Shown: positions 20,487 through 29,665 of the stretch, piece by piece
Layout: every line of letters starts with the position of its first letter
Numbering within the stretch: the stretch's first letter is position 1
Assembly (NCBI GenBank): GCA_021731495.1
Contig: JAKFXG010000023.1
Coordinates: 1-36,514 of the forward strand
From: Candidatus Parcubacteria bacterium
GTDB lineage: Bacteria; Patescibacteriota; Minisyncoccia; Phycocordibacterales; Phycocordibacteraceae
Direction of reading: 5' to 3'
Length of the DNA: 36,514 nucleotides
Made by a program: the position numbers and the translations under genes
The notes under the pieces: model-generated
The model's database searches: none
Told to the model about the DNA's origin: nothing
Seen by the model: only the letters and a program-made list of their open reading frames with translations

Positions 20487-20571
20487 ATAAGTACAAGACA
20501 AGGTGGAACCTTGTACATGAAAATAAATACGCGCCTTGCGGTCTGATTCTTTTTGCAGTAGGCTAGCGTTA

Positions 20572-20704
20572 CATGAATCCCGTTAGAGGTCTAAACAGCG
20601 AATATTTCTGCTATAGTTCCCCTGACGGGCGAGGAGTCAGTAATTTTATTCGCATCGATAATCGTACGGAAATCCCTAAGATTTCCTACCTCTAACGGGA
20701 TGAA
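20572..20704 (+). repeat. Inverted-repeat leader element E5 immediately upstream of rplI
   Basis: 14-bp perfect arms ATCCCGTTAGAGGT (20577-20590) / ACCTCTAACGGGAT (20688-20701); termini shared with the ftsW element. Confidence 0.9.
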
Positions 20705-21143
20705 AGTCATTTTAATGAAAGACGTAAAAGGGGTTGGCCGCGCATATGACGCCATCACCTTGGCGGACGGATACGCCCTCAATTTCCTCATTCCAAAGAA
20801 GCTCGCAATTGCCGCAACCCCAAGTGCGACGCAGCAAGCTGACTTGCGCCGCAAGCAGGCAACGGATCGTTCCGCGCTCGATTCTGTGCTTCTCGCGCAG
20901 AACATTGCCGCCCTCGCCGAAGCGCGCATCGTCATCAAATCCAAGGCGAACGAAAAAGGCCATCTCTATGACGCAGTCGGGAAGTCGGATATCAAGGAAG
21001 CCGCCAAGGAACAGGCTCGGATTGACTTGCCCGAAGACGCTATCAAGCTTGAAAAACCAATCAAAGAACTCGGGACGTTCGATATCCCCGTCGCCGCCGG
21101 CGAGGTGTTCGGGAAGTTTTCCATTACCATTGAGGCGGAATAA
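20700..21143 (+). CDS. rplI: 50S ribosomal protein L9
   Basis: MKVILMKDVKGVGRAYDAITLADGYALNFLIPKKLAIAAT. Confidence 0.96.
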   Translation: MKVILMKDVKGVGRAYDAITLADGYALNFLIPKKLAIAATPSATQQADLRRKQATDRSALDSVLLAQNIAALAEARIVIKSKANEKGHLYDAVGKSDIKEAAKEQARIDLPEDAIKLEKPIKELGTFDIPVAAGEVFGKFSITIEAE

Positions 21144-27373: not shown

Positions 27374-28471
27374 TTACGTCACACGGCGGGCGGCGACGTT
27401 AAGGATAAAACCGCACATGATGAGGGTGGCCATAAGCGCAGTGCCTCCGTGGGAGATAAATGGCAGGGGCAGGCCGGTAAGCGGGATGATGCCCAGCATC
27501 GCACTTATGTTGATGAATGTCTGCAAAATAATGATGAAGGAGAATCCGAGAGCAACGAGCCCGCCGAAGAGGTCGCGCGAGTTCCCTGCTATCACAATGC
27601 CGCGCGCCGCAAAGGCGACAAACAGCGCGAGAAGGATGGCGGCCCCGATAAATCCGGTTTCTTCAGCGAAGACCGCAAAGATGGAATCGCCGGCAGGTTC
27701 CGGCAAATAATTGAACTTTTCGACGCTTTGACCAAACCCTCTCCCTGCGAGTTCTCCGGAACCAATAGCGATCAAGGACTGCTGGATCTGATATCCACTG
27801 CTCAGAGAATTCTCCGAGGGGTTTATGAACGTCTTCACACGTTCAAGTACATAGGGCCGTGCAGCAATAACGATGGCAAACGCGAGGATGGCGCCGAGCG
27901 CGAGGATGCCGAAATCACGCCAGGGAGCTCCCGCAACGAAATACATCACAGTGCCCGTGACAAACATAAGAAATGCCGTGGAGGTGTTCGGTTGAGCAAG
28001 CAGGATGGCCGCAGGGATTATGAGGAAGATAAGGAAAGGAAACAGTCCTTTTTTCGTGCTTGCCAGTTCCCGGGCGCGCGGCGCGAGCCACCACGCGAGC
28101 GCCAGTACGAAACCGATCTTCAGGAATTCCGCCGGCTGTACGGTTGTGAATCCGATATCGATCCAGCGGGTCGCGCCGCCGGAGTGGAATCCGATTCCCG
28201 GCACGAAGACAAGTAGGGTGAAAAGGATGGTTAGAGCGTACAGAAATGGCGCGAAACGCTTTATCTGCGCAAGAGGGATGGTCCGCGCAACGAGAAGGGC
28301 CAGAAATCCGAGCCCGAGCCCGAGCCCCGCTTGAAGCAGAATGTCCTGCGATACCGAGCTGTTTTCCCGTGCAAGGAGTCCCAGCACCGCCGAAGAAAAG
28401 ATGGCGAGGCCAGCGAGAGCCAGCGAGATCACCAGCATAAAGAACATACGATCTCCCGAAACGAATTTCAT
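27374..28471 (-). CDS. ftsW: Lipid II polymerase/flippase-family FtsW
   Basis: SGYQIQQSLIAIGSGELAGRGFGQSVEKFNYLPEPAGDSIFAVFAEETG; LPLPFISHGGTAL. Start MKFVSGDRMFF. Confidence 0.95.
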   Translation of the reverse strand: MKFVSGDRMFFMLVISLALAGLAIFSSAVLGLLARENSSVSQDILLQAGLGLGLGFLALLVARTIPLAQIKRFAPFLYALTILFTLLVFVPGIGFHSGGATRWIDIGFTTVQPAEFLKIGFVLALAWWLAPRARELASTKKGLFPFLIFLIIPAAILLAQPNTSTAFLMFVTGTVMYFVAGAPWRDFGILALGAILAFAIVIAARPYVLERVKTFINPSENSLSSGYQIQQSLIAIGSGELAGRGFGQSVEKFNYLPEPAGDSIFAVFAEETGFIGAAILLALFVAFAARGIVIAGNSRDLFGGLVALGFSFIIILQTFINISAMLGIIPLTGLPLPFISHGGTALMATLIMCGFILNVAARRVT

Positions 28472-28587
28472 CCCGTTAGAAATAGTCCCGTTAGAGACCA
28501 CTTTGATTACGGCTACTAATATCGACCACTATATCGCTTTCTCGCGGAAAAGTCTCTAACGGGATGCGATTTCTAACGGGATTCATG
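28468..28587 (-). repeat. Nested inverted-repeat leader element E6 immediately upstream of ftsW
   Basis: Outer arms 28470-28483/28569-28582 (14 bp), inner arms 28487-28498/28552-28563 (12 bp); same termini as the rplI element. Confidence 0.9.
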
Positions 28588-28588
28588 C

Positions 28589-29665
28589 CTACTTGAGGAG
28601 GGCTACGGTCATGCCGACCGTGGCACACATGATAGAGATGATCCAGTACCGCATCGTCACTTTATACGCGGGCCAGCCGATAGCCTCGAAGTGGTGATGG
28701 AGCGGTGCGATGCGAAATATTTTTTTTCCGCGGAATTTCTTTGAAGCGACCTGGATGATGTTCGAGAGAACGGTAATCACAAGCGGAAAGGCGATGATGG
28801 GCAATGCGGCGATGCCGAAACCGTTTCCAGGCGTGTCGGTCATGAAGGCGATGACGGCAAGGGTCAACGTGAGGCCCATTGTTCCGGTTTCCGTCATCCA
28901 GAAGCGGGCGGGCGGGATATTAAACCAGAGGAATGCGAGTATCGCACCGGTGAGCGTCGCGGAAAAAGCTGCGAGGTTGATCTGATCTTGGAAATACGCG
29001 ATACCCGCATAGGCCATGAACGCGGTGCTAAAGACGCCGCCCGCAAGCCCATCGATGCCGTCAATGACGCCGCCGGCATAGAGTCCGATGGATATCAGTA
29101 TGAAAAGTGGGACAATGAGCGCGCCCACATAGAGCGTTCCGTCTCCCGGGACGCCGATGCTATCCACGCCAAGCTTCACGTAGAACCACCAGCCGATGAA
29201 GCCTGAAATAAGGGTGACGAAAAGAAGCCGTGTGCGAAGCCGTATTCCCCGTTCGCCTGAAGGATGGATATCGAGTATGTCATTCACAAAGCCGACCAAC
29301 GCGCCTGCCATGAGTGCAAAGAGCGGCACCCAGGTCTGACTGCGGCTGAAGAAATCAAGTTTCTGCGTAAGCGGTATCGGCACCAGTTGGGCGAGTACCC
29401 AAAGAGACATCGTTACAATAAGTACCGTCGCCCAGATAAGAATGCCGCCCATGCGTGGAGTCGACGTTTCAGTGCCGGTATGGATCGTGGTGCGGAGCTT
29501 CTCGAATTCAACGGCCGCTGTACCGTCAAGAGCGGTCTTTTTTGTCGTCTTTTTCCACACACGGTACTTATAGAGATAGTGTGTTAGAAGCGGTGCCAGT
29601 AAAATACCGACGGCAAAAGCGGCGATTGCAGGAATGAAGATCTTAAGGATGCCGCTTGCAATCAT
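28589..29665 (-). CDS. mraY: Phospho-N-acetylmuramoyl-pentapeptide-transferase
   Basis: TPRMGGILIW; DDILDIHPSGERGIRLR; GVIDGIDGLAGG; HHHFEAIGWPAYKVTMRYW. Confidence 0.96.
   Translation of the reverse strand: MIASGILKIFIPAIAAFAVGILLAPLLTHYLYKYRVWKKTTKKTALDGTAAVEFEKLRTTIHTGTETSTPRMGGILIWATVLIVTMSLWVLAQLVPIPLTQKLDFFSRSQTWVPLFALMAGALVGFVNDILDIHPSGERGIRLRTRLLFVTLISGFIGWWFYVKLGVDSIGVPGDGTLYVGALIVPLFILISIGLYAGGVIDGIDGLAGGVFSTAFMAYAGIAYFQDQINLAAFSATLTGAILAFLWFNIPPARFWMTETGTMGLTLTLAVIAFMTDTPGNGFGIAALPIIAFPLVITVLSNIIQVASKKFRGKKIFRIAPLHHHFEAIGWPAYKVTMRYWIISIMCATVGMTVALLK

Follow-up and report, generated by a model that had tools for sequence, protein, structure and literature searches.

Several described systems resemble parts of what we report here. 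Free-standing GIY-YIG homing genes, such as Seg and Mob of phage T4, consist of a small nuclease as the sole gene, placed in sites that are otherwise empty. MITEs and other non-autonomous derivatives of insertion sequences are short and multicopy, with inverted-repeat ends and a target duplication. Rickettsia palindromic elements stay translatable inside genes, REP/RAYT systems pair small palindromic repeats with an autonomous nuclease, and Magnusiomyces byps are mobile hairpins with repeated sites in coding context, whose take-off and landing sites are brought together by the hairpin. The nearest work on CPR bacteria concerns LAGLIDADG introns that sit in rRNA genes (PMC11270868); these resemble our case in a homing-endonuclease-driven spread within the same radiation, and differ in the nuclease family, in their rRNA targets and in being group-I-like introns.

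The locus studied here is a palindrome on the start codon of ftsW in a 36,514-nt stretch of Candidatus Parcubacteria DNA (the window), which also holds a second copy at rplI. It is very probably a non-autonomous copy of a palindrome-ended mobile family that inserts on protein start codons in a homing-type manner and is tolerated through translational coupling. No description of such a start-codon element was found among the titles and abstracts of the open-licence PMC literature, although absence there is no proof. The features concerned are listed below.

20559 to 20564, plus strand: putative -10 box TAGGCT, 8 nt before the left ATG, from reading of the sequence
20573 to 20577, plus strand: left target duplication of the rplI element, ATGAA
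20573 to 20695, plus strand: rplI uORF, 40 codons, with its TAA 4 nt before the rplI ATG
20578 to 20699, plus strand: rplI element, 122 nt, GGT class (GGT/ACC arm; conserved AATCGTACGGAAATC-loop-GATTTCCTACC)
20700 to 21143, plus strand: rplI coding sequence, whose first 5 nt are the right duplication
27374 to 28471, minus strand: ftsW coding sequence, 365 aa, beginning on the right duplication; start position kept in relatives
28467 to 28471, minus strand: right target duplication of the ftsW element, ATGAA, the ftsW start
28472 to 28581, minus strand: ftsW element, 110 nt, with outer AAAT-type arms TCCCGTTAGAAAT / ATTTCTAACGGG(A); empty sites in relatives
28486 to 28564, minus strand: inner 79-nt GAC-type palindrome TCCCGTTAGAGAC...GTCTCTAACGGGA, without an ATGNN duplication of its own
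28491 to 28586, minus strand: uORF MNPVRNRIPLETFPRESDIVVDISSRNQSGL and stop, the stop 19 nt upstream of the ftsW ATG
28582 to 28586, minus strand: left target duplication ATGAA, the uORF start codon, matching the first 5 nt of ftsW
28589 to 29665, minus strand: mraY, the operon gene upstream of ftsW, named from ORF reading and conserved synteny

A sequence-only reading of this DNA had reported the palindrome at ftsW, two concentric inverted repeats within it and a uORF beginning MNPVR (28586-28491). All are present as claimed: the element ends directly on the ATGAA of ftsW in the layout ATGAA-TCCCGTTAGA...TCTAACGGG-ATGAA (hyphens mark junctions), the two repeats are there, and the uORF frame stays open across copies of the family. 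On the minus strand, the mraY-ftsW junction reads ...CTCAAGTAGGC-ATGAA-TCCCGTTAGAAATCGCATCCCGTTAGAGAC...GTCTCTAACGGGACTATTTCTAACGGG-ATGAAATTC, with TAGGC directly before the left ATGAA. The copy reported at rplI (20573-20704), with junction ATGAA-TCCCGTTAGAGGT...ACCTCTAACGGG-ATGAAAGTC, has the same ends, but the outermost 5 nt (ATGAA) of these shared termini are target duplication and not element. The motif CCCGTTAGA and its complement have 6 exact occurrences in the window, all inside these two elements, and TCCCGTTAGA occurs 15 times in the 665-kb genome (98.7% complete; the window is its contig C9), with 0 occurrences of the reversed control. The interiors, described earlier as unrelated, do differ, since each of the two copies is of another sub-class; copies in other species share the GGT-class interior of the rplI one. 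Another small palindrome, GTACAAGACAAGGTGGAACCTTGTAC, lies at 20494-20528 of the window, just 5' of the rplI element.

The term "nested" is right as a description of the ftsW copy, in which a GAC-type palindrome lies inside AAAT-type outer arms. The inner palindrome has the same arm type as a stand-alone copy (L172) and nearly the same length. The earlier proposal of one element inserted into another has partial support: the two arm sets are in place, but the inner set has no target duplication, its flanks being CGCA and CTAT. The nesting may have come about by an insertion in which the outer interior was lost, or by copies recombining with each other.

Of 59 same-genus genomes, 15 hold the right end TCTAACGGGATG, with 88 occurrences in total and 0 for the reversed control. 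In 72 of these copies, the 5 nt before the left arm duplicate the first 4-5 nt of the downstream gene, with ATGAA in 40, ATGCG in 13, ATGGA in 11, ATGAG in 4, ATGAT in 3 and ATGGG in 1; three of the 72 agree at 4 of 5 positions. Since NN follows the host gene, the ATGNN flanks are a target duplication. It is readable as 5 nt with 9-bp arms or, equally, as a 4-nt TGNN with 10-bp perfect arms, and the terminal inverted repeats TCCCGTTAGA / TCTAACGGGA are lengthened by a class-specific 3-4 bp. Counting genome-wide confirmed that the position next to an ATG is the rule: gene starts hold 86 of the 88 right ends, the exceptions being the inner end of the nested copy and an isolated chance 12-mer, and none of the 72 duplicated copies in the 59 genomes lies on a non-start ATG. 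Besides these two exceptions, the 16 right ends outside the 72 include five nuclease-encoding copies and a degenerate copy (L015), all duplicated, one whose duplication is 4 nt (L203), four gene-start copies lacking the left duplication (L135, L136, L180, L201) and three apparent deletion scars between lemA and htpX. At these last (L131, L194, L202), the junction reads TTCTAACGGG-ATGAATCTC and the lemA stop appears to be the TAA of the element.

About 43 types of gene lie downstream, for example pgk, ftsI, murC/D, def, proS, rpmJ, ppa and recO; many of the genes hit are core genes. Pfam supports those that were sampled: in some the match begins at the N-terminus (RecO_N 1-66, L36 1-38), and others are seen as PGK, FtsI, MurC/D/F, pyrophosphatase and prolyl-tRNA synthetase-type. 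The seven sites in the genome of the window are all gene starts, namely proS, def, rplI, ftsW, an HD-domain gene, a T2SSE ATPase gene and murB, some of these names coming from ORF reading. Orientation in the AAAT class is 33 forward against 1 reversed. A search with the left end only gave more start-codon copies and, besides singletons, a few other pairs that form short hairpins, one of 30 nt in the same genome (C2:44038-44067) and two of 62 nt inside ORFs. Short CCCGTTAGA hairpins that leave the frame of an ORF open were seen at 1452-1513 of L249 and 1513-1574 of L250 and, in the genome of the window, at C2:3477-3518 (L047) and C2:14122-14166 (L048), in the manner of Rickettsia palindromic elements.

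This distribution could arise without any targeting of starts. Insertion might occur at any ATGNN, with copies elsewhere killing genes or being deleted, and with start-codon copies trapped in important genes because their imprecise deletion is lethal; such an account competes with ours for the targeting step only. ATGNN is indeed the sole motif shared by the targets of the 72 copies, with no strong upstream consensus, start-codon copies outlast speciation, as G002, G004, G008 and G014 have near-identical ones at the same gene, and the lemA-htpX junction looks like a deletion scar. On the other hand, non-coding ATGs in the window number 144 and genes 33, so the exclusivity is not a by-product of ATG frequency. 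Neutral ATGs thus outnumber starts by about 4:1, yet they carry 0 of the 72 duplicated copies, and neutral-site copies are absent even in genomes with 15-18 copies. Selective survival is weakened by this zero, and we hold it to be a real possibility that falls somewhat short of even.

With FtsW and RplI as queries, 30 same-genus loci were retrieved for each gene. No element of the family is present at 26 of the ftsW loci and 29 of the rplI loci, and the ATGAA-type start is intact in most; the empty sites looked for in related genomes therefore exist and are clean at most loci, as in AAATGACC-ATGAAAACC of G019 and AAATGAT-ATGAAGCTC of G022 for ftsW. The ftsW start carries a family element in G000 (the genome of the window), G002, G004 and G008, and the rplI start in G000 only. 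The sub-class at ftsW differs by species, being AAAT in G002 and GGT in G004 and G008, and it also varies between sister species at a solute-binding-protein gene, recO, def and a gene beginning MKSIGE. The G008 copy at ftsW shares 84% identity with a G014 copy located at a different gene, but only 75% with the ftsW copy of G004, so the two ftsW copies are probably separate insertions. At def and at the MKSIGE gene, some species have a short copy where others have one with the nuclease. Similar copies at other sites are common to G002, G004, G008 and G014, and therefore insertions also persist. The earlier suggestion of a mobile palindromic element is thus strongly backed by the empty sites, by target duplications that vary with the host gene, by different sub-classes at one start codon in sister species and by full-length relatives encoding a GIY-YIG nuclease. 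The G017 ftsW start carries a palindrome of yet another type (L093).

The same data bear on the other possibility raised from the sequence, a conserved regulatory leader (structured RNA and uORF) of ftsW and rplI. RNA folding gave long hairpins with z values of -6.3 and -5.0 against shuffles for the ftsW and rplI elements, the uORF is kept open, and arm pairs co-vary both inside the AAAT class and from one class to the next (AAT/ATT, GGT/ACC, GAC/GTC, GAT/ATC, GCC/GGC, GTT/AAC). Nevertheless, a leader linking the two genes found no support, as most orthologous loci are empty, different classes occur at one gene and the downstream gene types are unrelated; a single protein that recognises the two ends would likewise lead one to expect matched arms. 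A riboswitch or similar leader was rejected on the empty orthologous loci and on the Rfam search, in which no family scored above its gathering score. The AAAT-class stem co-varies beyond the arms (columns 18-113, GC 17 and AU 13; columns 21-110, GC 17 and AU 11), but a second register fits about as well as the first and this covariation may come from two lineages or from repeated protein-binding boxes, so no specific RNA fold is claimed. We consider the leader highly improbable for the family, while single copies may have been domesticated as leaders.

How an insertion on a start codon could be tolerated is suggested by the reading frame. Among copies with a length of 2 mod 3, the frame of the left ATG is open to the terminal TAA in 33 of 42, compared with 11.6 +/- 2.7 in dinucleotide shuffles of the interiors only, the fixed ends holding TGA/TAG in other frames; for the non-redundant set, the values are 27 of 34 and 9.6 +/- 2.4. 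The best shuffle left 19 of the 42 open (16 in the 34 non-redundant). Stops per codon amount to 0.010 in the left-ATG frame and about 0.07 in the others. Copies with a length of 0 mod 3 have early stops and none of 11 is open; among in-frame copies, 12 of 19 are open against 9.4 in shuffles, which is no excess. Translational transparency is therefore not universal. In open-frame short copies, the terminal TAA stands 4 nt before the host-gene ATG; the right arm with the duplicated start, TCTAACGGGATGA, gives this TAA, a TGA overlapping ATGA, or an S-N-G-M read-through. From the open frame, ribosomes would probably translate through the element and restart, and at the level of sequence it indicates selection for translation through the element and re-initiation in the length 2 mod 3 copies. 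Of the 72 left ATGs, 3 have a Shine-Dalgarno-like motif, and of the 72 second ATGs none has one, a scarcity that fits translational coupling. At ftsW, the uORF is ended by the TAA of the inner palindrome 19 nt before the gene, so coupling there may be weaker.

Removal or skipping of the element in the RNA, by splicing or by hopping as in the byps, would make such an open frame needless. The hairpin does bring identical ATGNN sites together, but the frame runs without a stop to a TAA 4 nt before the gene ATG, which, unlike the byps, suggests translation through the element. Moreover, 12 loci gave no Rfam match to a group I or II intron core up to E = 1. We give this explanation very little weight.

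A TANNNT box lies 3-17 nt upstream of 35 of the 72 invaded starts, compared with 13 in shuffles, and given these boxes and the near lack of Shine-Dalgarno motifs, the genus appears to be rich in leaderless genes. Most empty rplI sites have a -10-like, TAGGCT-type box 7-8 nt 5' of the ATG, a distance at which rplI looks leaderless in most relatives. G000 keeps this distance to the left ATG of the element, which points to the left ATG as the old rplI start; rplI would now start on the second ATG copy.

Five of the right ends have no left arm within 220 nt because the element there is about 280 nt long; it encodes MNPVRD...YVYVIRSLSSDYWYTGVTNDLRKRF...RFLSLTG and a stop, a GIY-YIG domain protein. 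Eleven full-length copies were found in a search of 93 genomes, with arms the same as or near-identical to those of the short copies; four of the 11 have a variant arm, TACCGTTAGA, or TGCCGTTAGA in G069. The protein has about 94 aa and matches PF01541 at E 1.5e-16, its putative catalytic Y, Y, R, H and E are invariant, and its closest solved structures are the UPF0213 proteins 1zg2 and 1ywl. The nuclease ORF usually starts on the left ATG of the duplication, so its residue 2 is set by the host gene (MN; MI at folD), and its stop TGA overlaps the host ATG inside ATGA. In the 93-genome search, the genome of the window had no nuclease copy with these arms, so that the short copies there either need a partner from outside this genome or are remnants. 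Short copies as a whole, the two in the window among them, have the look of non-autonomous derivatives.

Relatives with the same arms are found at gene starts in Sungbacteria (PHP-domain gene), Saccharibacteria (rfbB-like) and UBA918 (transketolase-like), with the matched arm changes GAC/GTC, GCC/GGC and GTT/AAC. The family also extends to Kaiserbacteria, Nomurabacteria and other genera of the phylum. A phylum-wide search with alignment A4, in which the N-terminus of the Sungbacteria row was altered to MMPVR, in the first residues only, because its natural frame starts on an internal ATG, gave more relatives, for example at tsaD-like and rfbA-like starts.

These full-length copies separate the family from ordinary MITEs moved by a conventional DDE transposase, with the GIY-YIG gene as a passenger. 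Inverted repeats, a short target duplication (72 copies) and non-autonomous copies are all MITE features. However, GIY-YIG is the only protein found between the same arms, in 11 copies of the genus and across the phylum, its ORF fills most full-length copies exactly, and other arm families in the genus also carry GIY-YIG only; no same-ended DDE partner was seen. The start-codon position and the translational pass-through are further differences, and we think a DDE-driven origin unlikely. Compared with the free-standing homing genes, the nuclease domain is intact, but there is no homing into one long (14-40 bp) conserved site, as the gene types have only ATG in common; palindromic ends, a target duplication, numerous dispersed sites in each genome, non-autonomous copies and start-codon insertion also distinguish the family. 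The start-codon element thus lacks one defining feature each of MITEs and of free-standing homing genes. Rickettsia-type insertion in frame inside coding sequences is seen only in the 62-nt relatives, while the main family sits on start codons with an ATGNN duplication and has a nuclease-encoding form. In contrast to REP/RAYT, where a Y1 HUH transposase acts without target duplication, no Y1 transposase was found, a GIY-YIG gene lies between the arms, the target is duplicated, and gene starts rather than gene ends are occupied.

Other GIY-YIG ORFs were also seen. In L263 and L265 (same genus) and L293 (same phylum), ends CCCCGTGAGATA..TATCTCACGGGG stand directly before GGAGGAAAGTCCGAAC, which we take to be a conserved RNase P RNA sequence; these elements apparently lie inside rnpB, and the palindrome could there lengthen one of the peripheral helices. 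L222 (C18:1816-2079 in the genome of the window), L224, L229, L223 and L226 hold GIY-YIG ORFs that end, judged by eye, at or inside apparent tRNA 5' ends. Elements with the unrelated arms CCCGGTATGAC, CGAGTAGTACAAC, ACCCGACACACTA and TCCYGTAGTRGAA occur at start codons too (L221, L262, L260, L304; L270, L273, L276, L227; L220). A second arm family, TTYACCCCGTTAGA..TCTAACGGGGTRAA, has its own GIY-YIG and is mostly intergenic and phylum-wide (L279, L281, L283, L287, L290); its CCCC-type copies in the genome of the window are at C13:4674, C13:10481 and C1:35488.

In the start-codon family, insertion leaves ATGNN on both sides, so that the host gene keeps its start codon. In most full-length copies the nuclease uses that start codon, and presumably the expression signals of the host gene. 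We propose that it cuts start codons in a staggered way and would move its own copies as well as non-autonomous ones in trans; the latter we infer, because the genome of the window has no full-length nuclease copy. I-TevI cuts with a 2-nt overhang, and a cutter of this kind does not obviously fit a 4-5-nt duplication. Tolerance would come from translationally transparent ends, which the frame counts show in part: ribosomes would initiate at the left ATG (M-x-P-V-R...), translate the element and then stop at the TAA 4 nt before the gene ATG or at the overlapping TGA and restart, or run on in frame; in the ftsW copy they would meet the earlier TAA of the inner palindrome, 19 nt upstream. That the element class actively recognises translation start codons as such is a tentative idea, on balance doubtful. 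With few Shine-Dalgarno motifs and about half of the starts looking leaderless, the DNA marks a start little beyond its ATG, and targeting may go through the ribosome at initiation, the nascent mRNA or the region where transcription starts, the nuclease being expressed from the very codon that it invades.

If this reading is true, a mobile element can settle on the start codons of important genes and leave these genes intact, through a duplicated start codon and an end, TCTAACGGGATGA, that gives a stop before the ATG, an overlapping stop or an in-frame fusion. Unusual N-termini (MNPVR...) and wrongly called starts in the annotation of Patescibacteria would then have an explanation. The finding of start codons by a tiny nuclease would become a directly testable question, and the system could offer a tool for start-codon insertion. 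The family would belong to a wider set of GIY-YIG palindromic elements in the phylum, at start codons, at tRNA 5' ends and inside RNase P RNA.
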